A stretch of DNA of 46,685 nucleotides from Streptomyces sp. NRRL F-6676 (lineage in GTDB: Bacteria > Actinomycetota > Actinomycetes > Streptomycetales > Streptomycetaceae), in the NCBI RefSeq assembly GCF_000725625.1, contig NZ_KL647084.1, forward strand, positions 1-46,685. The letters are read 5' to 3'. Numbering within the stretch: the stretch's first letter is position 1; each line of letters begins with the position of its first letter. Positions 26,368 to 46,685 of this stretch are shown here, in pieces. A program made the translations under genes and the position numbers. Below the pieces are notes generated by a model, which was not told the origin of the DNA, searched no databases, and saw nothing but the letters and a program-made list of their open reading frames with translations.

Positions 26368-26886
26368 ATGAGCCGTCAGCAGCCGGAAGGGGAACGGGGC
26401 TTAGACCCCGAGGAACCGCTGGCGCAGCGCCTCGCGCGCGCCCGCGCGGAGGTCGCCGCGGCCGAGGCCGCCGTCGCCCGTGCCGAGGAACGCCTGCGCG
26501 ACTTCTCCGCCGTGGCGCTCTCCGAGGACGGCGCCGTCGAGGCCACCGTCGGCGCACAGGGCGAACTCACCGGCCTGCGTTTCCTCGACGGCAAGTACCG
26601 CGACATGACCGGCGCCGAACTCGGCGCCGCCGTCGTCGAGGCCGTACGCCAGGGCCGCGACCGCGCGGCCCAGGAAGCCGTTCGGGTGTTCCGGCCGCTC
26701 ACCGAGCCCACCGAACGCGTCCCCGAACTGTCCGGCCTCGACGTCGACTGGGAGCGCTTCCTCAGCCGTCACGACGACACCCCCGGACGCCCCGCACGCC
26801 CCCGCCCCTCGGCCGGCTCCCGTCTGCGGGACGAGATCCACGAGGACGGCGACACCGACAGCGACACGGAAGGACCCCAGCGATGA
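26368..26886 (+). CDS. YbaB/EbfC-like (EspL-type) protein heading a type VII operon
   Basis: Predicted 172-residue protein. A coiled-coil (LAQRLARARAEVAAAEAAVA) leads into a YbaB/EbfC fold (FSAVALSEDGAVEATVGAQG, LTGLRFLDGKYRDMTGAEL, then VVEAVRQGRDRAAQEAVR). The family includes EspL and other small proteins encoded with ESX loci. The C-terminal part is acidic and disordered. The ATG at 26368 follows GGAGGGAGA; a GTG immediately before it is also possible. The stop overlaps the WXG100 gene as ATGA. Its position at the head of a WXG100/effector operon supports a role in secretion or chaperoning, which is inference. Confidence 0.82.
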   Translation: MSRQQPEGERGLDPEEPLAQRLARARAEVAAAEAAVARAEERLRDFSAVALSEDGAVEATVGAQGELTGLRFLDGKYRDMTGAELGAAVVEAVRQGRDRAAQEAVRVFRPLTEPTERVPELSGLDVDWERFLSRHDDTPGRPARPRPSAGSRLRDEIHEDGDTDSDTEGPQR

Positions 26887-27212
26887 CCGGACCCGCCTTC
26901 ACCGCCGACTCCGACCGCATCATGGCCGGAAGCCGGGCCATCCACGAACTCGGCAGGGCCACGAAAGCCCTGGCCACCTCCGCGCACTACGCGCTCGCCG
27001 ACACGAGCTGGACGGGCAACGACGACTACGGCCACCAGCTGCGGGCCAAGTACGTCCAGACCCGTGAGTCCGTCCTCGGGACTCTCGACGCGGTCGCGGA
27101 GGGCGTGACCGCCATCGGCGACGGCACGATCGACAATCTGGGCACCATCCTCGGCACCCAGCGCGGCGCCATGGAGAGCATCGTCCAGCAGGCCCGCGGG
27201 GGCCGTTCGTAA
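26883..27212 (+). CDS. WXG100-like (ESAT-6 family) small secreted-type protein
   Basis: Predicted 109-residue helical-hairpin protein. A first helix (about 8-40) is followed by the turn DTSWTGNDDYG, with Trp-Thr-Gly in the WXG position, then a second helix (about 50-100). Length and layout match the WXG100 family of type VII secretion substrates and partners, which form dimers and travel with larger LXG or polymorphic cargo. It overlaps the YbaB-like gene upstream and precedes the giant gene by one base. It probably pairs with the N-terminal helical domain of that protein. Confidence 0.87.
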   Translation: MTGPAFTADSDRIMAGSRAIHELGRATKALATSAHYALADTSWTGNDDYGHQLRAKYVQTRESVLGTLDAVAEGVTAIGDGTIDNLGTILGTQRGAMESIVQQARGGRS

Positions 27213-27213
27213 C

Positions 27214-29961
27214 GTGGCCATCACCGTCTCGCCCAAGCTCAACTGGCTTTTCTTCATCCTCATCGGGGAGACCTTCCTCGAGGCGAACGAAGACACCGCC
27301 TACGCGACGAGCAAGTCCTACCGGGCGATCAAGCGGGACGTCGGCCAACTCAGGGAGCAGGCACAGGCGGCGGTGAGGGCGGTGAGCCAGGGCTTCCCGC
27401 CCGGCGTCGCCCAGCAGTTCGTCGCCGCCATCAACGAAGTGCTGCCCTACCTCGACAAGTTCGAGAAGGACCTGGACCAGGTCGAGTCCGGCCAGGTCAA
27501 CGTCTCCATGCAGATCAGGGAGGCGAAGTGGAACATCATCGCCGAACTGGTCCGCCTGGCCATCGAACTCGCCGTCCTCGCCGTGCTGTCCTTCTTCACG
27601 GGCGGGGCGAGCGCCACCCAGGCGGCGGTCGCCCGGGCGCGCAGCCGGCTGTTCATCCTGGAGACACTGTACGAACTCTCCCACCGCACCCACCTGTTGC
27701 CCAGCCTGACGGAGGCGATAGAAGAGGCGTTCATGACGCTCGCCGTCCGGCTGGCCATGATGACGATGGCCCCCGCCGGACAGCGGCCGCGCTCGATCGA
27801 CTGGTTCGACGTCGGGGTGAGCGGTGCCTTCGGCGGGCTCGCGGGCGGCCTCGCGCCGGTCTTCTCGAAGTTCATGAAGAACTTCACCGACAACCTGGTG
27901 AACCCCTTCAAGAAGAACATCGACGACATCGTCGGCAAGTTCGACGACAACCTCTTCCGGAACAACGCCAAGTCCAGGACCGACGACCTCCCGACCCCTG
28001 ATCCGCACCCCAACCCGAACACGAGGAACGACCACCGCGACCTCGGCCCGGAGACCACCACCCCGAACCCGCCCCCGTCCGTCACCCCGTCGGTCACCCC
28101 GCCCCACCTCAACCCGCCGGACTACACCCCCACGCCCAGGCCCGACGGCCTCGGCGCCAAATCCGTCCACCAGGGCGGTCAGTTCGTCGCCGACGGAGCC
28201 TCCGAGACGCTGGCCGAGTCGATCATCATGGGCGCGTTCTTCGGCAACTGGATGCCGAGCTGGCAGACGTTCGTCGGGGCCGGTCTGAGCGAACGGTTCG
28301 AGGCGGGCGCGGAGGCGGGGATCACCAACAGCGCCAACTGGCTGAAGAACCTGCGGACCGTCTCGGGAGGGGGAGGGACAGGGGCCGGGGGAGGGCTCGA
28401 CGGAGGCGGAACGGACCGTGACGCCGACAGCGCTCACGGCGGTGGCGGTGACGTCGACAGTGTCTACGGCGGTGGCGGTGACGTCGACAGCACCTACGGC
28501 AGTGACGGTGACGCCGACAGTACCTACGACGGTGGCGGTGACGGTGACGCCGGTGGCGTCCGTGGGTACGGCGGCAAGCGTCCCGCGTACACCGACGACG
28601 ACGCGGACAGCGGCTACGGCAGTGACGAGGAGGCGGACCACGACGACACCGCCCACCCCGCGCCGGTGAGCGGGAAGGGCAAGGGGCGGGCGACGCCGAC
28701 CGACATCGACGTCACCGACGCGCGGGACCGGCACGCCGACGCCGTACGGAAGTTCACCGACGCGGCGAACGACGCGGAGAGGATCCGCACCCGGGTGGAG
28801 AGCGGTGAGGGGAGCAGCCGGGACGTCACCGACCTCGACCGGGCGAACCAGCGGGTGGAGCAGGCCGGGCAGCAGCTGGCCGGGACCGAGGACCGGCTGC
28901 GGGACCTCGGCCTGGACCCGGACACCGTCCCGACCACGTCGTCCCCGCACACCACCCCGTCCGCCCTCCCGACCTCCACGCCCACCTCCACGCCCGCGCC
29001 CGCCCCCGTCGTGCAGCGGGACGCGACGCAGCGGCAGTGGATCGCCTCGCAGGTGACCGCCGACGATCTCCCGGACGACCTGTCGGGAGGGCTGCCGGAC
29101 GGGCTGGACACCGGCACGACGGTGACCGTGAAGGACCTGGCCGACGCGGGGGTGACCCTGAGCCCCGATCTGCGGGCACAGATCGAGCTGGGCGGCGACG
29201 GCCGGGTGTCCCTGGCCGACAGCGGGCTGTCCCCCGTCGACCAGGTCAAGGCGCTGATGACACAGCCGGGTCCCTGGCCGGAGTCCCTGAACACCGTTGC
29301 CTCGCATGCCTCCCAGCGGCTGTGGCAGAACTCCTATGACGACTTCGCCCAGTCGCTGCCGGACCTGGATCCCGGCACCGTGCGGCAGGCCTGGGACTCG
29401 GCGGCCGGGCTGGTCCTGCCGCTGGAACTGCACCCCGTGCTCGCCGACTCCCGGCAGTCCCGACGTGACGGCCACGACTGGTGGCCCGCGGCCGGTCCCC
29501 ACCTCGTCGAGTGTTCCGGATCCGACGGATGTGGCGGATCCGACCGATGTGACGGATCCAACGGATGTGACGGATCCGACCGATGTGACGGACCTGAGGG
29601 ACGTGACGGATCCGACGCCGACCGGGAATGTCCTCGTCACACCCGACACGGACCCGCCCGGCACGGACGCCTCCGCCACGCCCGGGAGCGGCTTTCCCAC
29701 GCCGGTCACGGACGACGCGGGTACCCCGTTCCTCGCGACGTCCAGTACGGATTTCCCCGTCCTGTCCTCCTCGTCCGCCTCAGCGCAGGACTTCGTTCCG
29801 GACCCCGCCGCCGTCTTCAACCCCCTCACGAGCGCGTCACCGGCCGGTCCACCGTCTCCGGCCGGTTCCCTCGGTTCGGCGGCCATGGACATCGACACGC
29901 CCAGCCCCGCGCCCCAGTCGCCGCCCCCGCCCCCACCCCAGTCGCAGGACCCGTACCGTGA
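27214..29961 (+). CDS. Giant cargo segment A: N-terminal type VII targeting domain and linkers
   Basis: The GTG at 27214 opens MAITVSPKLNWLFFILIGET, typical of the WXG100-like N-terminus of polymorphic toxins and CpnT-like proteins. Helical segments run to about residue 235, including two hydrophobic ones (LAIELAVLAVLSFFTGGA; FGGLAGGLAPVF). A Pro-rich linker follows, then a conserved AKSVHQGGQFVADGASETLAE helix region, Gly/Asp/Tyr repeats (28440-28550, GGGGDVDS), and a region with TVTVKDLADAGVTLSPDLRA. The frame reaches a stop at 29961, but credible coding ends around 29430-29515, after which codon bias moves to the +2 frame. Up to there I see no toxin domain. Confidence 0.75.
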   Translation: MAITVSPKLNWLFFILIGETFLEANEDTAYATSKSYRAIKRDVGQLREQAQAAVRAVSQGFPPGVAQQFVAAINEVLPYLDKFEKDLDQVESGQVNVSMQIREAKWNIIAELVRLAIELAVLAVLSFFTGGASATQAAVARARSRLFILETLYELSHRTHLLPSLTEAIEEAFMTLAVRLAMMTMAPAGQRPRSIDWFDVGVSGAFGGLAGGLAPVFSKFMKNFTDNLVNPFKKNIDDIVGKFDDNLFRNNAKSRTDDLPTPDPHPNPNTRNDHRDLGPETTTPNPPPSVTPSVTPPHLNPPDYTPTPRPDGLGAKSVHQGGQFVADGASETLAESIIMGAFFGNWMPSWQTFVGAGLSERFEAGAEAGITNSANWLKNLRTVSGGGGTGAGGGLDGGGTDRDADSAHGGGGDVDSVYGGGGDVDSTYGSDGDADSTYDGGGDGDAGGVRGYGGKRPAYTDDDADSGYGSDEEADHDDTAHPAPVSGKGKGRATPTDIDVTDARDRHADAVRKFTDAANDAERIRTRVESGEGSSRDVTDLDRANQRVEQAGQQLAGTEDRLRDLGLDPDTVPTTSSPHTTPSALPTSTPTSTPAPAPVVQRDATQRQWIASQVTADDLPDDLSGGLPDGLDTGTTVTVKDLADAGVTLSPDLRAQIELGGDGRVSLADSGLSPVDQVKALMTQPGPWPESLNTVASHASQRLWQNSYDDFAQSLPDLDPGTVRQAWDSAAGLVLPLELHPVLADSRQSRRDGHDWWPAAGPHLVECSGSDGCGGSDRCDGSNGCDGSDRCDGPEGRDGSDADRECPRHTRHGPARHGRLRHARERLSHAGHGRRGYPVPRDVQYGFPRPVLLVRLSAGLRSGPRRRLQPPHERVTGRSTVSGRFPRFGGHGHRHAQPRAPVAAPAPTPVAGPVP
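28440..28550. repeat. Imperfect 30-bp tandem repeat (Gly/Asp/Ser/Tyr linker)
   Basis: About four imperfect copies of a 30-bp unit GGTGGCGGTGACGTCGACAG and onwards. They encode GGGGDVDSxY units, a flexible acidic linker in segment A. The unit is a multiple of three, so copy-number changes keep the frame. Confidence 0.75.
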
Positions 29962-32185
29962 TCCCCTGGTCCACGCCTTCGGCGACGGCATCACCGGGAA
30001 CCGGGTGTATCCGCAACTGCACGAGGCCCTCGGGCGGTTGGACGCCCTGCGGGGGACCGACAGCGACGCCGCGCTCCGTCAGGGGCCGCTCGATCTGGAC
30101 GCCGTCGCCCGCCGGGTGCTGCTCCTGGACCCGACGGATCCGGTCGGCAACGACGAGTACGGCGACCTGTTCCGCATCGCCCTCGATCCGGCCATGGAGC
30201 ACGCGCGCGGCCTGGCGACCCTGGCCGCGTTCGGTCTCTCCCTGCGCGGGGCCCTGGCCGGGCAGCGGGAGATGACCGCCCCCGACGGCACCGCGTACGG
30301 ACGTGACTGGGCCGGTACTCCGGGGGAGAGTCACGGGCTGGTCATGGATCTGGACGACGTGTGGGAGCCCACCGGGCTGCCGGACGGGCAGCCCCAGACG
30401 ACCAATCCCCGGCCGGCGCAGTGGCGACCGGGTCCGGGGCGGCCGCGGCCGTTCGTCGTCGTGGCCGGCGGCACCCCCCACAGGGTCGTCGTCAGCACGC
30501 GCGACGGCTCGGAGTTCGAGGCGCCGATCGACGTGTTCACCGAACTGCTCGCCATGGACCCCGTGCTGTCCGGACTGCCGAACAATGTGCCGGTCCTGCT
30601 GGTGGTCCCCAACGCCGGGGGCGGGCAACTGGAGCTGCCTCGTGCCCTGGCGGACCGGCTGGGCCGCCATGTGTGGTCCACCAGTGGCAATCCCATCATG
30701 CAGCTCCACGACGACGGGACACCGGTCAGGATCTTTCTGGAGCAGAAACCGGACGTGCCCCGCGGGGACTGGATCCGCAGTGAACCCGGCGAGGTGCTGA
30801 GCCACGCCGCTCTCCAGGCCACCCTGTCCACTCAGGTCACGCCCACCACGCAGAGTTCGGACGTTCCCGAGTGGGAGCGCAATCTGGTCAGTTTCACCCT
30901 CGTCGCGGACGGGGACGGCACCCGGCAGATCGGGCGGGCCGAGCCGACCGCATCGCCGATCACCGTGGGGGCCAGGCCCGGCGAACAGGCGCGCCACTAC
31001 AACCTCCACGCCACTCCGCGCGGCGTCGGCATGCCCCAGAAGGACGGCAGCACGTACGTGGCGTCCGACCACGAGTTCACCGGCTGGCTCACCCGGCGGC
31101 CGAGCGTGCGTGGCCTGCGCGACCAGGACTGGATCTATCTGGACAGCTGCTGGACCGGCGGCGTCTACGGCGGGAACGCGGGCGCCTTCTCCAACTGGGC
31201 CGCCTCCGTCCCCCCGGTCCCCGACCCGCTCGCCGACATCCCCATCGCACAGGTCGTCGCCAACGGCACCCGCAAGCGGGTACGAGCGGGTGACCGCGCC
31301 ATCGCCTACTCCCAGGCGACTCCCCACTCGCCCGTCTGGTTCGCCGTGTACACCGACGCGCGGGGGCGCCCCGGCCGCCTCCTGGAGTTCTGGCCGGAAC
31401 CACGCGACGCGGAGCTGGCGGACCTGGCCCGTACCGCCGGTCTGCACAGCGGTCCCGGTCCTGTGCCCAGGGACGTCCTGGACCGGACCCTGCGGCTGGT
31501 GCGCGCCCTGCGGCACGCCTTCGGCCCCGGTGTCGGCCCCGCTTTCGCCCCCGGAATCGGCCAGGATCCTTCCTACGACGATCTGCTGCGCGGTATCGGC
31601 GCGCTGGAGTTGATGCGGCAGAACGATCCGCACCTGAATGACATGGGCCCGTTCACCCTTGAGCTGTTCCAGCGGGCGGCCCTGGCCAACCTGCGGGACC
31701 ACGGCGGCGGCGTGCGCCCCCCGGACGTCGGTGCCTACCGTGACCTGCTGGCGCGGGCGGCAGGCGCGTCCCCGGGCACCCGGCTCACCGACTTCGTCCG
31801 GGTACCGTTCCTCGCCATGGTCACCCAGCGGACGCGGAACTTCAGGGATCTGCGGGCCGCTGCCATACAGGTGCTGCGGCTGGATCCCGGGGCCACGGTG
31901 GGCCCGGCGGAGATCTCCCGGTTCTACTGGGCTCAGGTGAAGTCGGCCGAATGGTTCTCCTCGCTGCCCGACGTGCATACCACCGCCCTGGTGGCACTGC
32001 ATCTGCCGGCGCCGGATCCGTCGAAACGTGCCGAGCTGGGCTGGCTGGCCACCAGGGCGATCGCCGCCGGACGGGACCCGTACAACGTCGTCGAACTCGC
32101 CGCCTTCCACCTGGAGGAACTGGGAGCCCTCGACGCCCGGACACTGACCCACGACGCCCACGGCCGGCCCAACGGCCGTAACTGG
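29513..32185 (+). CDS. Giant cargo segment B: first clan-CD-like module
   Basis: Frame 2 segment; the frame stays open to 32719. It begins with five or so DPTDV repeats and a long Pro/Ser linker. Module copy 1 starts near 29943 with QDPYRDPLVHAFGDGI. A helical/beta part has GLATLAAFGLSLRGAL and VPVLLVVPNAGGGQLELPRA. The peptidase-like part has YNLHATPRGVGMP (His codon 31007), YVASDHEFTGWL and DWIYLDSCWTGG (Cys codon 31148). A helical tail has DDLLRGIGALELMRQND and LFQRAALANLRDHGGG. At 32184-32186 a GGG run sits where GGGG would keep frame (AAC TGG GGC ACC), so one G has probably been lost and coding moves to frame 1. Confidence 0.75.
29516..29610. repeat. 15-bp tandem repeat (Asp-Pro-Thr-Asp-Val)
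   Basis: About six imperfect copies of a 15-bp unit GATCCGAC(C/G)GATGTGACG, encoding DPTDV/T in frame 2. They begin at or just after the first frame change of the giant gene and may have been its cause by slipped pairing. Confidence 0.8.
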
Positions 32186-35100
32186 GCACCTACCTCCGCA
32201 CCGGCCAGGAGCGGGCGCCCTGGGCGGGGTACAGCACCGCGGCGTATGTCGTGGTGGCCGAGGACACGGGGACGGGCAGGACCTGGATCACGCTGCCCGG
32301 TGGGCGACGGATCGCCGTACCGCACGCGGAGGCCGCCGAACTCCTCGCCCGCGACCCCGAACTCCTCGCCCGCGCCGTGGAGAAGACGGACGTCGTACTC
32401 GCTGTCCCCCGGTCCGGCGACAGCGCGATGCTGTCGAACGCGTCGCTGCCGAACGCGTCGCAGTCGAACGCCCCTCAGCCCGCCGCGCCCCTGCCCCTGC
32501 GGTTCGCCGTCGTCCAGGCCACCGGCCGGATCACCTGGGCGCCCAGGGGCACGGCCGTGCTCGGCCGTTTTGGAGCCACCGGGCCGGTCTCACTGTCCGG
32601 CACCCCCGCTACGCAGGGCACTCCTGCCGCCGCCGACTGGTCCCGCACGCACCCGTACGACCTGCTCCCGACGCGGCTGCGGACCCTGGCCGGGGCCTCG
32701 ACGAGCCCGGCGGGTCTGACGGGCGCGGAGGACCCGGCGCCGGCCGGGGACGTTCCCGTCACATCCGGCACGGACGCGGTTGACTCCACGCTGTCGTCGA
32801 GCCCGTCCCCGGCTGGTCCGTCGTCCCCGGCTGGTCCGTCGTCCCCGGCGGCCGTGGACACCGACACGCCCAGTCCGCAGCCGCAGCCCCCGGCCCAGGA
32901 CCCGTACCTCGGGCCCCTGGTCCAGGCCTTCGGCGCCGACATCACGTCGCACCCGCAGTACGCGCGACTGCGGGAGGCCATGAGCCGGTTGGACACCCTG
33001 CGGCGGAACGACCCCTCCGGCTCGCTCCGTGACGGGCCGTTCGACCTGGACGCCGTCACGCGCCGGGTGATGGTGTTCCTGCCCCCGGAGACGCCGATCG
33101 ACAGGGGCTGGTACGGAAATCTGATGCAATTCGCGCTCCATCCGGCGATGGAGCGCGCGACCGGTCTGGCGACCCTGGCCGCGTTCGGCCTCTCCCTGCG
33201 CGGGGCGCTGTCCGACCCGAATGCGATGACCGCCCCCGACGGCACCGCGTACGGACGCAACTGGGCCGATCGTCCGGGAAGGGGGCACCGGCTGGCCATG
33301 GATCTGGACAACGTGTGGGAGCCCACCGAGTCGGCGTACGGGGAGCCCGGGCTGGCCGATCCCCGCCCGGCGCCGTGGCGTCCGGCCCCGGGGCGGCCGC
33401 GGCCGTTCGTCGTCGTGGCCAACGGTGACCACGAGAGGGTCGTCGTCAGCCTGGGAGACGGCAAGGACATCGACGTGCCGATGGACGTGTTCGTCGAACT
33501 GCTCGCCATGGACCCGGTGTTGGCCCGGCTGCCGAAGGACGTGCCGGTTCTGCTGACGATTCCAGGGGCGGGGGCCCGGCAGCTGGAGCTGCCGCGTGCC
33601 GCGGCCGACCGGCTCGCCCGCCACGTGTGGTCCTCCAGCGGTGTTCCCCGCAGGCAGTTCTCCGACGACGGGGCATCGGTCAGGCTTTTCCTGGAGCAGC
33701 AGCGGGGCGTGCCCCGCGGGGACTGGATCCGCAGTGAGCCCGGCGAGGTGCTGAGCCGCGCCGATCTCCAGGCCACCTTGTCCACTCAGGTCACGGCCAC
33801 CACGCAGAGTTCGGACGTTCCCGAGTGGGAGCGCAATCTGGTCAGTTTCACCCTCGTCGCGGACGGGGACGGCACCCGGCAGATCGGGCGGGCCGCCCGG
33901 TGAACGGGTGCACCGCCTCAACCTCCACGGCTCTCCGCGCGGCGTCGTCATGCCACAGGAGGACGGCAGCACGTACTTCGCCTCCGACCAGGAAGTGGCC
34001 AAGTGGCTCACCCGGCGGCCGAGCGTGCGCCGCCTGCGCCGCCAGGACTGGATCTACCTGGACAGCTGCTGGACCGGCGGCGTCCACGGCGGGAACGTGG
34101 ACGTGTCCATGCACGCGGCCGCCTCCCTCCACCCGGTGCCCGATCCGCTCGCCGACATCCCCGTCGCGCAGGTCGTCGCGAACGGCACCCGCAAGCGGGT
34201 CCGGGCGGCCGACCGCTCCGTCGCCTACTCCTACCCGCTCGGCCCGCTGACTTCCCGCTCGCCCATCTGGTTCACCGTGTACTCGGACGCGCGGGGGCGT
34301 CCCGGCCGCCTCCTGGAGTTCTGGCCCGAACCGCTCGACGGGGAACTGGCGGACCTGGCCCGTACCGCCGGTCTGCACAGCAGTCCCGGTCCCGTGCCCG
34401 GGGACACTTTGGACCGGACCCTGCGGTTGGTGCGCGCCCTGCGGCAGACCTTCGGCCCCGGTATCGGCCCCGGCCTTGGCCAGGACCCCTCCTACGACGA
34501 TCTGCTGCGCGGCGTCGGCGCGTTGGAGACGATGCGGCAGAACGACCCGCTCCTGAATGACATGGGCCCGTTCACCCTTGAGCTGTTCCAGCGGGCGGCC
34601 CTGGCCAACCTGCGGGACCACGGCGGCGGCGTGCGCCCCCTGGACGCCGGTGCCTACCGTGACCTGCTGGCGCGGGCGGCAGGCGCGCCCCCGGGCACCC
34701 GGCTCACCGACTTCGTCCGGGTACCGCGCCTCACCGAGGTTGCCCAGCAGATCCAGCGCGGCGAGGACCCGCAGGCGGCCGCCGTACGGGTGCTGCGGCT
34801 GGATCCCGGGGCCACGGTGGGCCCGGCGGAGATCTCCCGGTTCTACTGGGCCCAGGTGAAGTCGGCCGAATGGTTCGCCTCGCTGCCCGACGCGGACGGG
34901 GTCGCCGTCGCGGCGCTGCACCTGCCCGGGCCCGATCCGTCGCAACGCGACGAGCTGAAGCGGCTGGCCACCGGGGCGATCGCCGCCGGCCGGGACCCGT
35001 CCGACCTCGTCGAACTCGCCGCCTTCCACCTGGAGGAACTGGGAGCCCTCGACGCCCGGACACTGACCCACGACGCCCACGGCCGGCCCAACGGCCGTAA

Positions 35101-35400
35101 CTGGGACGTCGTGGTGGCCGAGGACGCGGGGAAGGGCAGGACCTGGATCACGCTGCCCGGTGGACGACGGATCGCCGTACCGCACGCGGAGGCCGCCGAA
35201 CTCATTGCCCGCGACGCCGAACTCATCGGCAGGGACGACCTCACGACGGACGTCGTACTGGCTCTGTCCCGGTCCGGCGCGCCGCAGTCCACCGCGCCGC
35301 AGCCCACCACTTCGCAGCCCACCGCGCCCCCCTCCCTGCGGCTCGCCGTCGTCCACGCCACCGGCCGGCCCACCTGGGAGTCCAGGGGCACGGCCGGGCT
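29943..35400. repeat. 2.92-kb tandem duplication inside the giant gene
   Basis: Module copy 1 (about 29943-32530) and copy 2 (about 32890-35400) are collinear. The His and Cys codons are exactly 2,919 bp apart between copies (31007/33926 and 31148/34067), and the spacing within each copy is 141 bp in both. DNA stretches are nearly identical, for example 30846-30943 against the region ending at 33897, and 31656-31720 against 34577-34641. Copy 2 lacks 57 bp near 35107 and 35 bp near 33895. Confidence 0.88.
32185..33903 (+). CDS. Giant cargo segment C: end of module 1 and start of module 2
   Basis: Frame 1 segment. It reads GTYLRTGQERAPWAGYSTAA then VVVAEDTGTGRTWITLPGGR, a conserved beta part with AVPHAEAAELLARD, then a Pro/Ser linker (SSPSPAGPSSPAGPSSPA). 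Module copy 2 begins near 32890 with QDPYLGPLVQAFGADI and runs through VPVLLTIPGAGARQLELPRA and VPEWERNLVSFTLVADGDG. It hits TGA at 33901 because, relative to copy 1, 35 bp are missing at 33894/33895; downstream coding resumes in frame 2. The first ATG/GTG in this frame is a GTG-region start near 32251, so it would not be translated alone in a natural way. Confidence 0.72.
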   Translation, partial: GTYLRTGQERAPWAGYSTAAYVVVAEDTGTGRTWITLPGGRRIAVPHAEAAELLARDPELLARAVEKTDVVLAVPRSGDSAMLSNASLPNASQSNAPQPAAPLPLRFAVVQATGRITWAPRGTAVLGRFGATGPVSLSGTPATQGTPAAADWSRTHPYDLLPTRLRTLAGASTSPAGLTGAEDPAPAGDVPVTSGTDAVDSTLSSSPSPAGPSSPAGPSSPAAVDTDTPSPQPQPPAQDPYLGPLVQAFGADITSHPQYARLREAMSRLDTLRRNDPSGSLRDGPFDLDAVTRRVMVFLPPETPIDRGWYGNLMQFALHPAMERATGLATLAAFGLSLRGALSDPNAMTAPDGTAYGRNWADRPGRGHRLAMDLDNVWEPTESAYGEPGLADPRPAPWRPAPGRPRPFVVVANGDHERVVVSLGDGKDIDVPMDVFVELLAMDPVLARLPKDVPVLLTIPGAGARQLELPRAAADRLARHVWSSSGVPRRQFSDDGASVRLFLEQQRGVPRGDWIRSEPGEVLSRADLQATLSTQVTATTQSSDVPEWERNLVSFTLVADGDGTRQIGRAAR

Positions 35401-35704: not shown

Positions 35705-35837
35705 TGCTCCTCCGGCATCGGACACCACCGTCCTTGCTCCTCCGGCATCGGACACCACCGTCCTTGCTCCTCCGGCATCGGACACCACCGCGCTTGCTCC
35801 TCCGGCATCGGACACCACCGCCCCTGCCCCTCCGGCA
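35609..35837. repeat. 30-bp tandem repeat array with one 19-bp unit
   Basis: Eight units starting at 35609, 35639, 35669, 35699 (short), 35718, 35748, 35778 and 35808. Each full unit encodes SDTTVLAPPA. The fourth lacks 11 bp (ACCACCGTCCT), which breaks the reading frame. The array is a Pro/Thr linker between module 2 and the beta-rich region. Confidence 0.92.
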
Positions 35838-38800: not shown

Positions 38801-41800
38801 GGCGTACCAGCGCCACCCCTTCCTCACCCTCGCCGTCACCGCCCACCCCGGGCTCACCGACGCCGCCCAGGAGGTGCTGGAGGAGGCGTCCGGCAACTCC
38901 TGGCTGCTCTCCGAGGAGGGCGCCCCCGCGCACGACGCCGCGATGCGGGCCTTCCAGAGCCAGTACCTCACCTCCAACTTCGACCAGACGTCGGCCCCTT
39001 CGGGGTGGCGGGTCTCCGGGCTGTGGGCGAAGGCGCCGTACCTGAACCGCTCCGCGGTCGTCGCCCACCGCACCCGCCTGATGCCGGGCAGCCTCACCGC
39101 GCTCACCGGGGCCGTCCCCGTCGACACCGAGACCACGCTCGGCGGGGTCACCCAGGCCGCCGGGCGCAACAGCCGCACCAGCACCACGTTCTTCGGCGGC
39201 CAGCTCGTCTACCTGCACTCCCACGAGACCGGGCCGGGCGTCACCGGCAACTACGGCCTCGTCATCAGCCCCTACCGGCTCGACCGCGGCCAGACGCGCA
39301 CCGTCTCGCGGGTCGCGCTCGCGGAGATCAACCGCAAGGACTTCAACCGCCAGGTCCTCGTCACCGGCGACGTCCAGCACGAGATCGCGGCCGCCTCCAC
39401 CACCGTCGGCCGGGCGGCGACCGGTTGGCGGTACATGCCGCGCCGGCTGGCCGGGGCCGCCGGGCGGCGCGTCCGGGTCGACGACGGCTGGACCGGGCAC
39501 CTCCCGGAGAAGAGCGCATACCGGCTCGGCCTGCTCACCGACCGGTGGGGCGACGTGCCGCTCTACACCGGGCGGTCCTGGTCGCCGCAGCCCTGGCTGC
39601 TCGACAACCCGTTCGGCGGCTTCCCCGTCAACTCCCTCAACGCGGCACCCGTCCTGCGCAACTTCGACCGGAGGCTGCGCCCGCTCGGCCTGTCCAAGGC
39701 GGACCGGGACGCCATCCACCGGCTGGTGTCGGCACGCGTGGTGCGCACCCTCGGCAAGGAGATGGTCGGCTCCGGGTCCTCGGTGCCCGCGAGCATCGGC
39801 CGCTGGGGCTCGCGGACGACGCAGATATGGATCGGTGAACGCCAGGTCAGGGCGCGGGCTGAGCTGATCCCCGTCAAGGTGCCCCGTACCCCGGCGGACA
39901 CCGCCGCCGGCGAGGGGCCGGGCTTCGCCGGACTCGGGCACAGCGTGGAGTTCGAGGAGCACCGGCAGGCCGTCGAGACGGAACAGGAGGGCAGCAGCCG
40001 GGCCGCGGGTGCCAGCGTCGGCACGACGGTCAGCGAGGGCGTACACACCGGCAACGACCTCGTACGGGCGGCGGGCCCGAACTACTCCGAGGTCGGCGCC
40101 ACCCAGCAGAACGCGAACCAGACCCACTCCGAGGGCGGTGTGCGCATCGCCACCGCGACGACCACGCAGGCCCACGGCGAGTACGTCACCCGCTACCGGC
40201 TCCGCCTCACCCTGGAGGTCACCGACACCGGCGAACCGGCCACCGCCGACGGCACCACGCAGGCCCCCGCGGGCCGCGCCGCCGCGCTGCGACGGGGGCT
40301 CGGGCGCTGGTGGCACAAGTGGACGGGACACCGCCGGCTCACCCTCGTCGAGGAGGGCGACGTCGGTGAGCTCATCGAACACCTCCCGCTCAGCCTCATG
40401 CGCCCCGACCCGCCCGGTACGGACGGCACCGGGGACGATGCCGGCGGTGACTCCGATCCGCTCGCCCCGCCGCGGCTCGGCCCGGCCGGCAGCCCCCACA
40501 AGGTGGACGTCCCGCCCGGCATGGGGGCGGGCGGCTGGCACGACGTCACGCACCCCGGCGACGGCACCGTGAAACCGTTCACCCTGCCCGAGGACGGCTT
40601 CAAGATCCGCCGGGTCGTCGGCCTCGACCATCTGCACACCGCCAACACCCTCGCGCTGGCGGCCGCGTACGACGCCTCGCTCGACGTACCGCGCATCGGC
40701 ACCCCCAGCGAGGCGCTCGTCGCCAAGGCGCTGGACACCCCGCTGACCCGGGCCGGCAGCGGCTCGGCGCAGAACCTCGAGGACGGCACCGGCAACGGGG
40801 CGCTCACCTCGTTCTACGACCACACGCTGAACCCGGACGGGTACCAGATCCCCGGACTGACCGACAGCGGCTTCTTCGGCGGCGCCGACGGCGACCTCCG
40901 GATGTACTCCAAGCCGGACTTCCGCGGTGCCCAACTCCTCACCGTCACCGACGGGATGAAGCACGAGGCGCCCAAGCGCGACACCCACGGCGGCGGCATG
41001 TCCGCGGCCCGCGTCGGTACGACCGAGTCCTCGCTGGGCGGCGGCCCCCTCACCTCCTCCCAGAACACCGGCTCCAACCAGATGGGCGCCTCGGGGCCCG
41101 GCGACTCCTCCACCGAGTCCGACGCCCTCGCCCAGTCCGGCGACCGGCTCGCCTCGGTCAACGTCAAGCCCAACACCACCCGTTCGTTCCTCTTCGCCAT
41201 CCCCACCACCTGGCTCAGCGTCGCCGCCGTCCACCACCACGCCAAGGACAGCAAGGCGGTACGGGTGCTGCGCAGCCCGTTCGGACAGACCAAGCGGGCG
41301 CCGCAGGCGGTGGAGACCGACACCACCGTGCTGGCCTGGGTGCGCGAGGACATCGCCCGGCAGCTCGGGCTGATCGACGACACCGGGTTCCCGCCGAAGG
41401 TGGGCAAGGCGTGGGACGCCGTCACCAAGGCGGACAAGGCGTGGACGGCCGCCGACAAGAAGTACTGGGACCTGCGCCGCGACGAGGGGCCCGCGCGGGA
41501 CGCGGCGCTCGACCGGGCCCAGCGGGACCTGGACGCGCGGATCGCCGCGCTGGACACGCTGCCGGAGGTCGTCGCGGCGCGCGGCGCGCTGCACGCCCTC
41601 GACGACGAGGCGCGCGCCGCCGAGCCCGCGCACGACGGCTGGGCCGAACTGCGCGAGGAGCAGCGCCAGGACGCGGTGGACCGGCTGGCGCGGGTGAAGC
41701 GGGAAGCGCTGACGGCCGTCACCGAGGCCCGGGACGCGGCGCGCGCCCGGGTGGACGAGTTCGACGCGATGCTGCGGACGGCGCGCGAGAACGCGGAGGC

Positions 41801-42068
41801 GCTGGCCGCGGAGTACGCCCGGGTCCGCGAGGGCGCCGACCGGCTCACCCGCTGGCACCAGCTGTCCGCGACGGAGGCGGGCCGCGCCCGCCTCGGCACC
41901 ACGCCCGAGCCGGACGAAGTGACGTTCACGCCACCGGCGGAGGAGAAGAAGAGCGACGGCAAGAAGAAGGAGGAGCCGAAGAAGGAGGAGCCGAAGAAGG
42001 AGGAGCCGAAGAAGGAGGAGCCGAAGAAGGAGGAGCCGAAGAAGGAGGAAGGGCGACGGGAGCGGTGA
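35706..42068 (+). CDS. Giant cargo segment E: beta-rich region, coiled coil and charged tail
   Basis: Frame 3 segment of about 2,120 codons (frame open from before 35160, but upstream is shadow). After a Pro/Arg linker, about 1,700 residues are beta-rich and I cannot assign a family. Repeated blocks share a pattern with Gly-Arg-Tyr, Ser/Thr-rich strands and a closing Tyr-x-x-x-Leu-x-Leu-Thr: NVRYGSSRSRYATTGGTG, GGRYGRRSDVESGYGPSA, AGPNYSEVGATQQNANQT. Long Ser/Thr strands (TMQRTTTTTGRTAVNSTSTS) recall membrane-inserting strands of beta-pore formers, a loose resemblance. Near the C-terminus a coiled coil (about 200 residues, ALDRAQRDLDARIAALDTL) precedes a KKEEP tail. The stop is one base before the next gene. 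Confidence 0.76.
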   Translation, partial: APPASDTTVLAPPASDTTVLAPPASDTTALAPPASDTTAPAPPASDTTTPVKTVDKTGRPRASVTRPPRVPRPAALPSIPEGAPAPPVPPARIPGVPRLASVGDDIDERRPPRLDRDLPPAPVSGGGPVSFTDRSRLPAYMGGIGALLPGLPRGVLSRSYRLGQSDRALRGGDGVAREIGARLGHYHHLAPAPAAKRRGTPPRTLVDDVRQRLERNPHGFFGDGQQFTYRTKSGRTRVATVTARPYGQWERFAFGYANPVKVDTMQRTTTTTGRTAVNSTSTSLLPSVPLGPTRDPYSVWGRVFFRKAWGKRVQYGQQNQTVNQLETRTTDGSHAHLDDVWYDITVTDRRGRPVDGMGKPVTRPGASGIGFGFAVRDGLLVRLADSLTHDDPPPDRLPARLDLGGRPAYRAVATETYGPLSHVRGWVLNQAGVKSDTMAGTQLNDFFSFDAFHRAGGVLNAGRTTTPPLFRDDSGRSPLGVFSVQVESGDAVLISETKAAELRDIMQSTVRNERNVGRSKNTEIGGAAGPSFQWFGLREGKFNLRLLLGGNVRYGSSRSRYATTGGTGAVKSAAQAKGDPTGLYLVQKTITVTAPPGTKAPLPDQRGDGAGRRGKLRKNPPRTWSSPPVSQTFQTWAVERMTRTEALRLAAPADRTPPTEPGPAVPPYLAEDDPTTLGMARAEQFTFADGSTTRTVDGQERTFPEYVAERVLAEVARVHPDLVAPLAELNPRNPRWRDAAHYEIVLNNTLEVLNTLTHHGMAGNLETMMTGGLRLSLVDSGRATRGLRHVWIDARLTGRRYEGKQKDLRLRFSAPGSENLGGQQSAGRGLHGGVEGLLSVRDPATDNIGLPNRAGTASLGGRYGRRSDVESGYGPSATHEAMSISTKGAHLYSYDLTLTARRGGFWRFRSMLRGILFLNLLGTQPFVFRDPQTDLIAPTAAPGTGTDTGSDTGTGTSTTGTTPSADPARTGTGPVAGRVLLSIPTEHVPTRHRDRRPSPLHGRPLKLTTRGARDLALSTRRFFDRVGRQRPEAYQRHPFLTLAVTAHPGLTDAAQEVLEEASGNSWLLSEEGAPAHDAAMRAFQSQYLTSNFDQTSAPSGWRVSGLWAKAPYLNRSAVVAHRTRLMPGSLTALTGAVPVDTETTLGGVTQAAGRNSRTSTTFFGGQLVYLHSHETGPGVTGNYGLVISPYRLDRGQTRTVSRVALAEINRKDFNRQVLVTGDVQHEIAAASTTVGRAATGWRYMPRRLAGAAGRRVRVDDGWTGHLPEKSAYRLGLLTDRWGDVPLYTGRSWSPQPWLLDNPFGGFPVNSLNAAPVLRNFDRRLRPLGLSKADRDAIHRLVSARVVRTLGKEMVGSGSSVPASIGRWGSRTTQIWIGERQVRARAELIPVKVPRTPADTAAGEGPGFAGLGHSVEFEEHRQAVETEQEGSSRAAGASVGTTVSEGVHTGNDLVRAAGPNYSEVGATQQNANQTHSEGGVRIATATTTQAHGEYVTRYRLRLTLEVTDTGEPATADGTTQAPAGRAAALRRGLGRWWHKWTGHRRLTLVEEGDVGELIEHLPLSLMRPDPPGTDGTGDDAGGDSDPLAPPRLGPAGSPHKVDVPPGMGAGGWHDVTHPGDGTVKPFTLPEDGFKIRRVVGLDHLHTANTLALAAAYDASLDVPRIGTPSEALVAKALDTPLTRAGSGSAQNLEDGTGNGALTSFYDHTLNPDGYQIPGLTDSGFFGGADGDLRMYSKPDFRGAQLLTVTDGMKHEAPKRDTHGGGMSAARVGTTESSLGGGPLTSSQNTGSNQMGASGPGDSSTESDALAQSGDRLASVNVKPNTTRSFLFAIPTTWLSVAAVHHHAKDSKAVRVLRSPFGQTKRAPQAVETDTTVLAWVREDIARQLGLIDDTGFPPKVGKAWDAVTKADKAWTAADKKYWDLRRDEGPARDAALDRAQRDLDARIAALDTLPEVVAARGALHALDDEARAAEPAHDGWAELREEQRQDAVDRLARVKREALTAVTEARDAARARVDEFDAMLRTARENAEALAAEYARVREGADRLTRWHQLSATEAGRARLGTTPEPDEVTFTPPAEEKKSDGKKKEEPKKEEPKKEEPKKEEPKKEEPKKEEGRRER
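41964..42050. repeat. 15-bp tandem repeat encoding KKEEP
   Basis: Five perfect AAGAAGGAGGAGCCG units from 41964 to 42038 and a partial sixth. They encode a Lys/Glu/Pro tail at the end of the giant protein. The purine-rich strand also gives strong ribosome-binding potential for the OTU gene at 42070. Confidence 0.9.
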
Positions 42069-42069
42069 G

Positions 42070-45000
42070 GTGGCCGCTCCGGGGGCCCGCCCGGCGTACG
42101 CCCGCCCGCCCTGGCAGCCGGACCCCGCGGGGACGCGCGTCCGCTTCGACGCGGCGACCGACCACCGCACCCTGACGGCCACCGAACCCGACGGCAGCAC
42201 CCGGATCTACGACCTGCACCGTTCCGACGCCGACGGCAACGGCTTCTTCGCGGCCGTGGGGCATGTGGTGCGCGGCCGGTACCAGGACCCCGCGCTGCTG
42301 GCGGCCGCGGTGGCCCGAAGCGAGGAGATGCCGAAGGACGCGCCGCTGGACCCGGACGCGGTCTTCCGCACGGAGGAGCTGGACGCGAGGATCGGCGGCA
42401 CGGACTACGGCCGGAACCCGGCCAGGGAGATCCTCGACCTGGCCGCGGTCGAGGCGGACGGCGGGCGCCTGCCCGAGGACCTGCGCACGGCGCTGAACCC
42501 GGTGCAGCGGGCCGCACTGGTGCGGCTGCACGTGCAGCGGGCCCGCCGGTGGGACGCGGCGACGGCCGAGCTGGCGGCGGGGGTGACGGCGCGCACTCTC
42601 GGCGTCGACCTCGTCGTGGTCGACGAGGACGGCAGCGAGCGGCGGTACTCGGGCGCGGGCCCGCGCACCAGCGGCCCACGCCGCGAGGTGACGCTCTACC
42701 GCCAGGGCGACACATACCTGGCCGCGGTCCCCCGCCCCACGACAACCCCACGACGCCTCCCGGCCCCGCCGACCGAGCCGGACACAGAGCCCGCGCTCCC
42801 GCCCGCACCGGAGGGCACGAAGCCGGCGCCGTCGGTGCGGCCGGGCGGCGTGGAGTCCGAGTCGTCGGTCGTGCCGGGCGCCGCGGAGTCTGAGTCCACG
42901 GTGGTGTCGCCTTTGGCTCCGTCGGTGGACCCCAAGTCGACCGCGTTGGTTGCACCGTCGGGCGTGCGGGATGGGTCCTCGCCCACGCCGGAGGGCACGA
43001 AGCCGGCGCCACTCGGCGCCGAGTCCGAGTCGTCGGTCGTGCCGGGCGCCGGGGAGTCCGAGTCCACGGTGGTGTCGCCTCTGGCTCCGTCGGCGGACCC
43101 CGAGTCCACCGCGTCGGTTGCACCGTCGGGTGCGCGGGACGGGTCCTCGGCCGCGCCGGAGGGCACGAAGCCGGCGCCACTCGGCGCCGAGTCCGAGTCG
43201 TCGGTCGTGCCCGGCGCCGAGGAGTCCGAGTCCACGGTCGTGCCGCCTTTGGCTCCGTCGGTGGACCCCGAGTCCACGGCGTCGGTTGCACCGTCGGGTG
43301 CGCGGGACGGGTCCTCGGCCGCGCCGGAGGGCACGAAGCCGGCGCCGTCGGTGCGGCCGGGCGGCGTGGAGTCCGAGTCCACGGTCGTGCCGCCCCCGGC
43401 CGCGCCGGACGAGACGAAGTCCGCGTCGCCTGTCGCGCCGAGCGGGAGCAAGGTCGCGTCCCCGGCCGTGCCCGGCGGGGCCGGGTTCGGGCGCAAGGGT
43501 GCCGCATCCGTTGCGGTGCCCCCTGTACCGCCGGCCGGACCGGAGACCGCACCGTCGTCTCCGGTCCGGGCGGCATCCCCCGGGGCGGACGCCGGGGCGC
43601 GGATCACCGTGGGCGGGCGTGGGTTCCGGCGGCGTGCGGTGGCCGCCGACGGGGACTGTCTGCTGCACGCCGTACGGCACGGACTGCGGACGCAGGCGCC
43701 CACGCTGCGCGCCGGGCTCGCGAGCATCCCGCAGCTGCGCCAGTTCCTCGCGCACTGGTACGCCGGTTCCCCCGACGCCGCCGAACTGCGCGCCGGGCAC
43801 GCCGAGCAGGACCCGTTGGAGATCCTCGTCCGGGACCAGTTCCCCGACCGCGCCTCCCTCCTCGCCCTGCTCGGCCGCACCCGCCCCCCGGAGCTCACCC
43901 CCGCCCAGCGCGAGCGCGTGGACGAACGGGTCGCCGACGCCCGGATCCGCGCCGCCCTCGTCGGCCTCGCCACCGTCCCCGAGGACCGGGAGCTGCTGCG
44001 CAGCCTCCCCACCGGCGTCGCCCGCACCCTGCTCCCGGACGACCCGTCCGACCTCCCGCCGGTCGACGAGCAGTTCGAGCAGCGCCAGATCGCCCTGGCG
44101 CACGCCGACACCTTGCGGGTCGAGGTGCTGAGCGTGCTCCGGGCCGGCCCCGGCGACCCGGACGCCGACGCCCTGTGGCACCGCGTACGCGCCGCACTGC
44201 CGCACCGCGTGCGCGAGGGCGGACTCCCGCACGATCGCACCGCGTTCCTGGCCCTGAGCCTGCCCGATGTCGTCACCCGCGCCCTCGCCTCCGCCGACCT
44301 CTGGCAGTCCCCCTTCTACGACGACGTCCCCCTGCTCGTCGCCCGCGCCCTCGGCATCGACCTGGTCGTCGTACAGCCCGAGGCCCGCGGCGGCCACTCC
44401 GCCCGGGCGCTGGACGCCGGCGCCACGGGGCCCGCCGTCCACGTCCACTACAACGGGATCAACCACTACGAGTCCCTGGAGCCGGACGGGACGACGGCCG
44501 AACCCGCGCCCCCCGCCCCCGAAGTCCCGCAGCCGCCGCCCGCCCCGCGATCCGACCGGGCGGACCGTGACTGGCTCGCGGACCTCGCCCGCGAGCACGG
44601 CACGAGCGAGGGATTCCTGACGGAGCTGACGGCCGGCCTGTCGCCCGGGACCCTCGCCGAGCTGCGGGCCCGGGGCCGGCGGCGCGACGGCGACCTCGCC
44701 CCGCCGGTACGGCCGAAGCGGGTCAAGAAGGAGGAGCTGGACGAGGACGAGGAGGTCCGCATCAACCCGCTGTGGACCCCGCTCGACGAGATCGACCCGG
44801 ACCTGCTGCTCGCCGGCAACCGGAACGCCGTGTGGATCTACACGGTCACCCCGGAGGGCCGCGTGCTGCTGGGCAGCGAGAAGCCGTCGGACGTCCTGTC
44901 CGAGGACCAGTTCGACGCGCTGCTCGCCGGTGTACGGACCCGGCGACCCGGGATGACGGCCGACGACCTGCGCGGGACCGTCGACGGTCTCGGCCACACC

Positions 45001-45969
45001 GGCGTCGCCGCCCGGTTCGGGACCGGCGGCAGGCTGGCCCCCGGCGCGAGCCGGGTCTCGGGCGAGTTCCTGTGGAGCGAGGAGCTGCGCTCGTGGACGG
45101 TCAACGACAAGTCCGGCCGCTACATGAGCAAGGCCGTCCGCCCGGACCTGCCGCCCCAGGAGGCCGCCCGCTGGCTGGAGAACGTGGCCGGCATGTTCAC
45201 CGAGCGGCTGGGCGTCACCGTCCGTCCGGTCCAGGTCAAGTCCGCCGCGGCACCGCAACAGGAGGCCACGCGGACGGAGCCGGGGACGGTCGGCGAGCTG
45301 ACGCTCAGTCACCTACCCGACAGCGGTGACTGGTTGCCCGGGGCCCTCGCGGGCGCGCTGCGGGACCGGGCGCCCGCGCTGCTGAGCCGGCCGGGCCTGG
45401 GCGCCCTCCTCGCCGGGCCGGACCCGGCGGACGCGCTGCACCGCTGGGTGGAGTTCCGGCTCTCCGCCCCGGAGGCCGCACGGCGTGCCCCGCAGCTCGG
45501 CGCGGAGGACTGGGCGGGCAAGCACACCACCGCGACCATGGATGAACTAAAGTCCGCAGGTGTGACGTTGCTCGACGAACAGCACGCCTTCGCCGTCATG
45601 TCGGGTGGCCTGCCCCTGGCGGAGGTCACGCTCACCCCCGCCCAGCGGTACCGGCTGCTGCGGCTGTGGGGCGACCGCGGCGAGACCCTCACGGAGATCG
45701 CCGCCGCCATGGCCGCGGCCGACCTCGGCCTGCGTCTCACGCTCACCGCACCGGACGGCGGCGCACGGCACTTCGACCCGCCTGCCGCCGCAGAACCGAA
45801 CCCGTCCGGCACGGAACCGAACTCGTCCGGTACGGAACCGAACTCGTCCGGTACGGAACCGAACCCGTCCGACCCGGTGCCGAATCCCATCGACCCGGAA
45901 TCGCGTCCCATCCGCCCGGAGCCGGCCGAACCCGCCCCGCCCGGTGACCCGTTGGAGCCCCGACAGTGA
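42070..45969 (+). CDS. OTU-type cysteine protease with inactive OTU copy and type VII-style C-terminal module
   Basis: Predicted 1,299-residue protein. The first 230 residues resemble an OTU domain whose nucleophile motif has lost Cys (RSDADGNGFFAAVGHVVRG, about 51-69; then TARTLGVDLVVVDEDG). A linker with 56-60-residue repeats spans about 247-440. The intact OTU domain (about 515-805) has DGDCLLHAVRHGL (Cys530), FYDDVPLLVARALGIDLVVV and NGINHYESL (His799), the Asp/Cys/His pattern of ovarian-tumour peptidases. A C-terminal domain (about 920-1060) has RVSGEFLWSEELRSWTVND then SGRYM, a strand pattern known from polymorphic-toxin proteins. A Pro/Glu/Asn repeat tail ends it. The GTG start is 1 bp after the giant gene, so they are coupled. 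OTU enzymes remove ubiquitin in eukaryotes; a target here is inference. Confidence 0.82.
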   Translation: MAAPGARPAYARPPWQPDPAGTRVRFDAATDHRTLTATEPDGSTRIYDLHRSDADGNGFFAAVGHVVRGRYQDPALLAAAVARSEEMPKDAPLDPDAVFRTEELDARIGGTDYGRNPAREILDLAAVEADGGRLPEDLRTALNPVQRAALVRLHVQRARRWDAATAELAAGVTARTLGVDLVVVDEDGSERRYSGAGPRTSGPRREVTLYRQGDTYLAAVPRPTTTPRRLPAPPTEPDTEPALPPAPEGTKPAPSVRPGGVESESSVVPGAAESESTVVSPLAPSVDPKSTALVAPSGVRDGSSPTPEGTKPAPLGAESESSVVPGAGESESTVVSPLAPSADPESTASVAPSGARDGSSAAPEGTKPAPLGAESESSVVPGAEESESTVVPPLAPSVDPESTASVAPSGARDGSSAAPEGTKPAPSVRPGGVESESTVVPPPAAPDETKSASPVAPSGSKVASPAVPGGAGFGRKGAASVAVPPVPPAGPETAPSSPVRAASPGADAGARITVGGRGFRRRAVAADGDCLLHAVRHGLRTQAPTLRAGLASIPQLRQFLAHWYAGSPDAAELRAGHAEQDPLEILVRDQFPDRASLLALLGRTRPPELTPAQRERVDERVADARIRAALVGLATVPEDRELLRSLPTGVARTLLPDDPSDLPPVDEQFEQRQIALAHADTLRVEVLSVLRAGPGDPDADALWHRVRAALPHRVREGGLPHDRTAFLALSLPDVVTRALASADLWQSPFYDDVPLLVARALGIDLVVVQPEARGGHSARALDAGATGPAVHVHYNGINHYESLEPDGTTAEPAPPAPEVPQPPPAPRSDRADRDWLADLAREHGTSEGFLTELTAGLSPGTLAELRARGRRRDGDLAPPVRPKRVKKEELDEDEEVRINPLWTPLDEIDPDLLLAGNRNAVWIYTVTPEGRVLLGSEKPSDVLSEDQFDALLAGVRTRRPGMTADDLRGTVDGLGHTGVAARFGTGGRLAPGASRVSGEFLWSEELRSWTVNDKSGRYMSKAVRPDLPPQEAARWLENVAGMFTERLGVTVRPVQVKSAAAPQQEATRTEPGTVGELTLSHLPDSGDWLPGALAGALRDRAPALLSRPGLGALLAGPDPADALHRWVEFRLSAPEAARRAPQLGAEDWAGKHTTATMDELKSAGVTLLDEQHAFAVMSGGLPLAEVTLTPAQRYRLLRLWGDRGETLTEIAAAMAAADLGLRLTLTAPDGGARHFDPPAAAEPNPSGTEPNSSGTEPNSSGTEPNPSDPVPNPIDPESRPIRPEPAEPAPPGDPLEPRQ
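42808..43390. repeat. 168/180-bp tandem repeat in the OTU gene linker
   Basis: Units starting at 42808, 42988, 43156 and 43324 (periods 180, 168 and 168) encode PEGTKPAP, ESESSVVPGA and ASVAPSGARDGSS blocks. The last unit is partial. Near-identity suggests recent expansion of the linker between the two OTU-like domains. Confidence 0.88.
45796..45869. repeat. 21-bp tandem repeat encoding EPNSSGT
   Basis: Three and a half units of GAACCGAACTCGTCCGGTAC type (21 bp), encoding a Pro/Asn/Ser/Gly/Thr tail at the end of the OTU protein. Confidence 0.88.
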
Positions 45970-46685
45970 CCTCCTGGCCCGCCTCCCCCCGGCCGGACAC
46001 CCCGCCCGCACCGACGGCCTCCTCCGGCCCGGCGGCTCCGCCCGGCCCACCGCGGCCGCCCGAGGAGCTCGTCGAGGCCGCACGGCTCGCCCCGGACCAC
46101 TGGATCAGCGCGGTCGACCCGGGCTGGACCGGCGACGGCCCGCCGCCCGCCTTCGCCGTGGCCGGCCGGTGGCGTTCCGGGCTCGGCGGGGAGATCGAGG
46201 AGTGGGAGGAGAACGACGCCTACCGGCCCTCCCCCCGTGCCCTCGGCTGGCCCGAGCCCACGGACGCGCTCGACGCCGCGCTCCAGGGCGTCGTCACGGG
46301 TTACGGACCCCCCGAGGACGTGGCCCTGGCCCTGGCCGAGGCGGAACTCCTGGTGCTCACGCTGCCCGACGGCTCCCCGGTGACCGCCACGGCGGCGGAC
46401 GGCACCCCGGTCGTCCCCGTCTTCAGCGCCGCCGCCCACCTCGACCTCGTCGGCGGCTTCGCCTCCGCCCGCCGCACCACGGCGGAGCTGGTGCCCCACC
46501 TCCCGCCCGGCCACCGCCTGTACGTCAACCCGGCCGGCCCCGCGGACGCCATCCTGGACCCCACACCGCCGACGGACGCGACGGACCCGATGGTCCCGGC
46601 ACCGGCGACGGACCCGACGGTCTCGGCACCGGCGACGGACCCGACGGTCTCGGCACCGGCGACGGACCCGACGGTCTCGGCACCG
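45966..46685 (+). CDS. Type VII secretion system-associated protein (cut by window end)
   Basis: A GTG at 45966 overlaps the OTU gene stop (GTGA), and the frame is open for 240 codons to the window edge. It starts MTSWPASPRP with a Pro-rich leader. The domain follows with DHWISAVDPGWTGDGPPPAF, VAGRWRSGLGGEIEEWEEND and AYRPSPRALGWPEPTDALDA, then an SseB-like part with VALALAEAELLVLTLPDGSP, VPVFSAAAHLDLVG and LYVNPAGP. This matches the family called type VII secretion system-associated protein in Streptomyces. Beyond that, a 27-bp tandem repeat encodes ATDPTVSAP up to the edge. It ties the giant/OTU pair to type VII secretion. The true C-terminus is unknown. Confidence 0.83.
   Translation, partial: MTSWPASPRPDTPPAPTASSGPAAPPGPPRPPEELVEAARLAPDHWISAVDPGWTGDGPPPAFAVAGRWRSGLGGEIEEWEENDAYRPSPRALGWPEPTDALDAALQGVVTGYGPPEDVALALAEAELLVLTLPDGSPVTATAADGTPVVPVFSAAAHLDLVGGFASARRTTAELVPHLPPGHRLYVNPAGPADAILDPTPPTDATDPMVPAPATDPTVSAPATDPTVSAPATDPTVSAP
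46605..46685. repeat. 27-bp tandem repeat array (runs off right edge)
   Basis: Three units of a 27-bp sequence beginning GCGACGGACCCGACGGTCTC, each encoding ATDPTVSAP. The array reaches the window end and probably continues. Confidence 0.9.

Follow-up and report, generated by a model that had tools for sequence, protein, structure and literature searches.

What does the plus-strand gene cassette at positions 26,368 to 46,685 of a stretch of DNA from Streptomyces sp. NRRL F-6676 encode: a set of separate secreted proteins, or one very large protein whose gene appears in pieces? The stretch (contig NZ_KL647084.1, positions 1 to 46,685; hereafter, at its full 46,685 nucleotides, the window) belongs to C11, a contig of 284 kb in a draft genome of 8.1 Mb and 166 contigs. 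A preliminary description of this DNA had proposed a tight, one-directional array comprising a YbaB-like gene, a WXG100-like gene, a single 14.9-kb giant gene, an OTU gene and a type VII-associated gene. The list of open reading frames (ORFs) and the GC content by codon position bear out the packing, from which a single transcript had been proposed: all cassette genes lie on the plus strand, the YbaB-like stop (26886) overlaps the WXG-like start (26883), the WXG-like stop (27212) is followed by a start at 27214, stop 42068 is followed by start 42070, and stop 45969 overlaps start 45966. A single open 14.9-kb gene is not borne out: coding instead runs through five overlapping or adjacent frames between 27214 and 42068 (27214..29961, 29297..32719, 32251..33903, 33908..38746 and 35160..42068), then through 42070..45969, and the GC codon profile switches frame at about 29.5, 32.2, 33.9 and 35.7 kb. 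The results support the reading that the locus is the gene for one very large type VII-associated protein that combines two caspase-like modules with an OTU-like domain.

Frame breaks and repeats in the giant gene

In relatives the pieces form a single protein. A search with a conserved core, E, gave 88 confirmed stretches, the best 80 of which were kept and correspond to 67 distinct loci (by title 65 Streptomyces, one Streptacidiphilus and one [Kitasatospora] papulosa); the C-terminal piece is matched in 56 of these loci and lies in the core's own ORF in 51 of the 56. A Streptomyces griseoaurantiacus protein of 5,167 residues (P0008, cluster of 24 sequences) runs from the N-terminal WXG100_2 domain through the OTU part; the one-contig genome G136, labelled as the same species as the window genome, has an intact 5,325-residue frame followed by a 242-residue associated gene; and the closest named relative, S. 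griseoaurantiacus JCM 4763 (locus L057), has a stop-free frame of 4,382 codons. The OTU part as a separate partner gene is not supported, since relatives carry it in the same protein as the core; the OTU-like profile match itself stands.

Mapped on the window, the L057 frame changes near 29.46-29.6, 32.185, 33.89, 35.63-35.67 and 41.94-42.06 kb, that is, at five breaks. The longest two non-tandem exact repeats of 27214-45969 are both 99 nucleotides, and at all four ends of these 99-nucleotide repeats, sequence present in G136 and L057 is missing from the window. Repeats of the same length at independent sites are what one expects from a fixed k-mer assembler, here with k presumably 99. A second giant-like gene, on contig C44 of the same draft, changes frame at the end of the same 102-nucleotide repeat that ends at break 1. 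As controls, positions 1-27000 hold one exact repeat of at least 31 nucleotides (33 nucleotides, tandem), contig positions 46700-65000 give 15 repeat rows (one tandem of 52 nucleotides and 14 from a run of N), and the intact G136 gene holds four exact repeats, the longest of 63 nucleotides. A run of 59 N lies at contig positions 46686-46744, directly past the window end and beside a 27-nucleotide tandem array.

The alternative is that the window copy is a true pseudogene, a once-intact giant gene decayed by five frame changes, as the unbroken relative might suggest. Consistent with decay, 6 of 50 relative loci likewise have the N-terminal domain split from the core into separate ORFs, and the ratio of non-synonymous to synonymous substitution rates (dN/dS) against L057 is 0.47-0.79 in five of seven pieces compared. 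Three further points weigh against assembly joins: breaks 4 and 5 are located only to about 100 nucleotides, no break falls at several further exact repeats (for example pairs of 89 and 63 nucleotides, arrays near 43 kb), and no collapsed repeat copy was found on any other contig of the draft, because of which we count the assembly error as inferred. Against decay, breaks 1-3 fall at exact-repeat ends and breaks 4 and 5 in tandem arrays, though exact repeats of at least 41 nucleotides, with 10 nucleotides added per side, fill 9% of the region; two pairs of repeats are of exactly the same length, 99; the C44 paralogue shifts frame at the same repeat end; the 5.9-kb core is free of any break at a dN/dS of 0.31 (remaining six pieces, 0.41-0.79); and all seven pieces lack internal stops. 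We consider a pseudogene unlikely, and conclude that joining of the assembly at repeats, not decay, most likely produced the window's frame breaks. Short-read drafts may thus fragment such genes, and 'pseudogenes' of this family need long reads. The six split relative loci are L081, L086, L091, L095, L107 and L117.

Table 1. Positions of cassette features in the window
Feature	Position	Strand	Remarks
YbaB/EbfC-like small protein	26368..26886	+	PF02575 33.9 bits; alternative start 26182
Small WXG-like protein	26883..27212	+	W-x-G motif; conserved place 5' of giant
Giant protein overall	27214-45969	+	six coding pieces in the draft
Giant, N-terminal piece to break 1	27214..29459	+	WXG100_2 (residues 21-144) and linker
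102-nt exact repeat common to contig C44	29358..29459	+	break 1 at repeat end
Lonely-Cys module 1 (clan CD-like)	29930..32191	+	NF012197 711.2 bits
99-nt exact repeat, first pair, copy 1	30843..30941	+	copy 2 at 33797-33895
Candidate dyad, module 1	His 31007-31009, Cys 31148-31150	+	alignment columns
99-nt exact repeat, second pair, copy 1	32088..32186	+	break 2 at copy end; copy 2 at 35007-35105
Lonely-Cys module 2	32983..35065	+	NF012197; cut by break 3 at about 33895
99-nt exact repeat, first pair, copy 2	33797..33895	+	break 3 at copy end
Candidate pair, module 2	His 33926-33928, Cys 34067-34069	+	motif positions
30-nt tandem array, one 49-nt step	35612..35853	+	break 4
Core E, about 1,880 residues	36021..41659	+	alignment A1, 7 sequences
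Perfect 15-nt tandem array	41963..42049	+	break 5 within or just past array
C-terminal part of giant, separate ORF in draft	42070..45969	+	same ORF as core in relatives
OTU-like domain in C-terminal part	43594..44565	+	profile A2 vs PDB
Candidate OTU pair	Cys 43657-43659, His 44464-44466	+	alignment columns
Type VII secretion system-associated protein (lone7para_assoc, SseB-like)	45966..46685	+	NF033532 179.2 bits; PF07179 23.7 bits

Lonely-Cys modules, core and OTU-like domain

The two cysteine-peptidase-like domains previously suggested for the giant correspond to two clan CD-like modules of the NCBIfam family lonely_Cys (NF012197, curated cut-off 200 bits); the halves of module 2 on the two sides of break 3 score 293.9 and 444.7 bits, and several of the closest proteins carry the name 'lonely Cys domain-containing protein'. 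Residues H360 and C407 are invariant in all 27 rows of the lonely-Cys alignment (A3) and would be the catalytic pair. Structure modelling gives a hint of a caspase-like (clan CD) fold for the domain. If the fold is right it offers a cheap test, namely self-cleavage.

The OTU-like domain was recognized with a 19-row profile (A2) run against the PDB, which gave 11 rows at E up to 5. The best match is OTUD3 (E 9e-4), four rows are named OTU proteins, and the OTU chains align around both motif regions; the remaining rows are one adiponectin and six short viral polymerase or replicase chains, which we take to be viral OTU domains. The candidate Cys is kept in 18 of 19 rows and the His in all 19. 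The Pfam OTU model, PF02338, matches 5 of the 19 members with E values no higher than 1, the best being 0.029.

Core E, between these two parts, has no family match in Pfam and NCBIfam scans. Its second part (37938-41510; alignment A4, 34 rows) was modelled with a predicted local distance difference test score of 68.9 and a predicted template modelling score of 0.70; the model is beta-rich, with five strands of 30-43 residues, and Foldseek gave no significant match to it. A 300-residue piece of the core is present in 19 of 81 genus genomes drawn (the window genome included; two at E near 9e-4).

Comparison of the window with G136, a single genome pair, gives identities of 87% for the N-terminal piece, 94% for core E and 77% for the C-terminal part, with 66% for lonely-Cys module 1 and 58% and 61% for the halves of module 2; the lonely-Cys part (29930-35118) is thus far more divergent than the core. 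G136 has one full lonely-Cys module with a short partial match behind it, and the window has two modules. In genome draws that overlap, 10 of 61 genomes of the genus have lonely_Cys matches (8 over the cut-off), as do 36 of 147 of the order (23 over the cut-off; one of five genera). Open frames of lonely-Cys giants reach about 15,900 codons. A separate search gave 53 related giants of 3,602-7,728 residues, among which PF15644 is listed in seven, six of them named toxin glutamine deamidase domain-containing protein.

Type VII context of the cassette

The giant N-terminus matches WXG100_2 (PF25547, 36.1 bits, cut-off 27), in agreement with the WXG-type N-terminus described before, and the YbaB-like assignment likewise holds at a PF02575 cut-off of 25.5 bits. 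For the small gene called WXG100-like, the motif is kept (of 44 sequences, the window's among them, 41 keep the W and 43 the G), but there is no Pfam match, and the gene is not among the three PF06013 (WXG100) places of the genome. Among the 48 relative loci with over 1 kb of locus ahead of the N-terminal domain, the giant is preceded by the WXG partner in 43, by YbaB in 42 and by an AAWKG-family protein in 37; the gene order, for which a check in other Streptomyces had been suggested, is conserved. The small WXG-like protein is a probable secretion partner, and the YbaB/EbfC-like protein a possible EspL-like chaperone.

The proposed association with a type VII (ESX) system is supported. In G053 the genes follow one another as EccD, EccB, two WXG100-like genes (one passing the Pfam cut-off), lone7_assoc_B, AAWKG, YbaB, WXG and giant. 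The second gene past the G053 giant (L036:10409-11746) encodes a 445-residue protein in which PF14200 and PF00652 mark a ricin-type lectin domain. In the window genome, C44 carries an ESX core with EccC, EccD and EccB over their cut-offs, and mycosin and EccA models matching below theirs; beside it, at C44:8167-11655 (L056:167-3655, minus strand), stands the second YbaB-WXG-giant-like set, whose 1,162-residue ORF matches WXG100_2 at 28.3 bits. Given an ESX core with one such set on C44, the window holds a detached second cassette. The kept gene order supplies a type VII system for export testing.

Behind the giant, the type VII-associated gene was correctly named (NF033532, cut-off 85 bits). 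It extends beyond the window end into the 59-N gap, so its length is uncertain. An associated gene stands behind five of the seven giants first retrieved with the lonely-Cys model (not G053 or G057) and downstream in 3 of 34 core-found loci with room for it. As noted earlier for this DNA, no partner immunity gene is visible: Pfam and NCBIfam scans of the neighbouring genes found no recognized immunity family beside the giant. The SseB-like lone7para_assoc protein may have an immunity role.

Proposed working of the giant and its rivals

The reading that we favour, and hold to be somewhat better than an even bet, is that of one ESX-exported giant, a self-processing multi-effector, with the window breaks as assembly joins. 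The genome's own ESX/type VII system would most likely export the giant, with the WXG100_2 domain of the giant pairing with the small WXG protein and the YbaB-like protein serving as substrate chaperone; the giant would work as a polymorphic-toxin-type multi-effector. The lonely-Cys modules, as caspase-fold (clan CD) cysteine peptidases, would probably cut the giant itself and release pieces; the OTU-like domain would be a second processing peptidase or else an effector set free, in which case it would be a ubiquitin protease, pointing to eukaryotic targets. Besides the repeat-related points above, several results tell against this reading. The window cassette is not adjacent to the ESX core. 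PF02338 reaches 12.9 bits with the window sequence, under its cut-off of 23.3, for which reason the domain is filed as OTU-like only, and the Asp three before the Cys is kept in 8 of 19 rows. For the lonely-Cys model, Foldseek alone gave no match at E 0.001 or better, all VIA Z scores are below 8, a range flagged as possibly reflecting a mere common arrangement, and the modelled window module lacks the stretch directly before the His that other rows carry, so that the model is weaker there.

Two other accounts of the protein have to be weighed. The giant could be an antibacterial polymorphic toxin aimed at rival Streptomyces, with lone7para_assoc or an unrecognized gene as immunity. Such a role would fit the within-species variability (66% for lonely-Cys module 1 vs 94% for the core, in one pair) and the associated gene behind five of the first seven giants; it is opposed by the lack of a recognized adjoining immunity family and by the downstream associated gene in only 3 of 34 core-found loci. 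We also know of no ubiquitin target in bacteria for an OTU domain. The retrieved passages of Zhang et al. (2012; PMC3482391) also count WXG giants of this sort as polymorphic toxins. On balance we regard this account as doubtful. We find it distinctly improbable that the giant instead serves the hyphae as a type VII product in structure or development, its peptidase domains acting in nothing but its own maturation: the large, conserved, beta-rich core without family match and the repeated low-complexity linkers would suit it, but a toxin-type enzyme domain (PF15644) is listed in 7 of 53 relatives and the spread is patchy, with lonely Cys in 36 of 147 order genomes.

The cysteine protease domains of MARTX and large clostridial toxins are peptidase C80, characterized by autoprocessing that InsP6 triggers. 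A bolder idea, to which we give little credence, is that the giants are the type VII-exported counterpart of these toxins: the core of about 1,900 residues, in whose model strands of up to 43 residues form hairpins, would be a channel or membrane-inserting scaffold by which the flanking parts would reach the inside of a eukaryotic cell; there the lonely-Cys domains would free them and the OTU domain would remove ubiquitin. Those toxins use another export system, the likeness lies in the way of working only, and this protein has no sequence match to their cysteine protease chains in the PDB. For the core, Foldseek gave no significant match, hydropathy lends weak support and internal sequence repeats are almost absent; we therefore treat the channel or scaffold as conjectural.

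The system belongs to a kind already known. In the passages retrieved from Zhang et al. (2012), actinobacterial WXG/type VII toxins carry OTU domains, a Streptomyces giant with arrays of caspase-like domains is proposed to process itself, and giants of more than 10,000 residues combine caspase-like and OTU domains (longest toxin of their set SACTE_5178, 13,652 residues); the preliminary view that clan CD and OTU domains in one type VII locus are unusual is thus not supported. By description, those giants and the window giant share an N-terminal WXG leader, a length of thousands of residues and caspase-like plus OTU domains. In general Pfam and NCBIfam scans the window giant has no ART, lethal-factor or MCF1-SHE match, and core E finds no mention in those passages. 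The window proteins pass both cut-offs of the NCBIfam families lonely_Cys and lone7para_assoc; the model descriptions give no function, and the caspase-like fold and His/Cys pair are proposed here. According to the part of PMC6319747 consulted, EspL of mycobacterial ESX-1 is predicted to have a YbaB-type domain and has been proposed to act as a chaperone; by description it resembles the window YbaB-like protein in that this kind of domain is encoded together with a type VII system. We found no function test of lonely-Cys giants in the literature, and the term 'lonely Cys' is absent from the papers searched. What is added here is the lonely-Cys fold hint, the core and the assembly diagnosis.

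At the downstream flank, the next long gene past the associated gene is GH106-like and lies on the opposite strand, and the DNA common to G136 and the window on this side is 95% identical over 10 kb. On the upstream side, synteny with G136 starts only at about 26213, and window positions 1-26212 have no match in the 8 kb taken from G136 there; left of the synteny start are an LTD-domain gene (25437-26330) and an FG-GAP gene (23788-25320).

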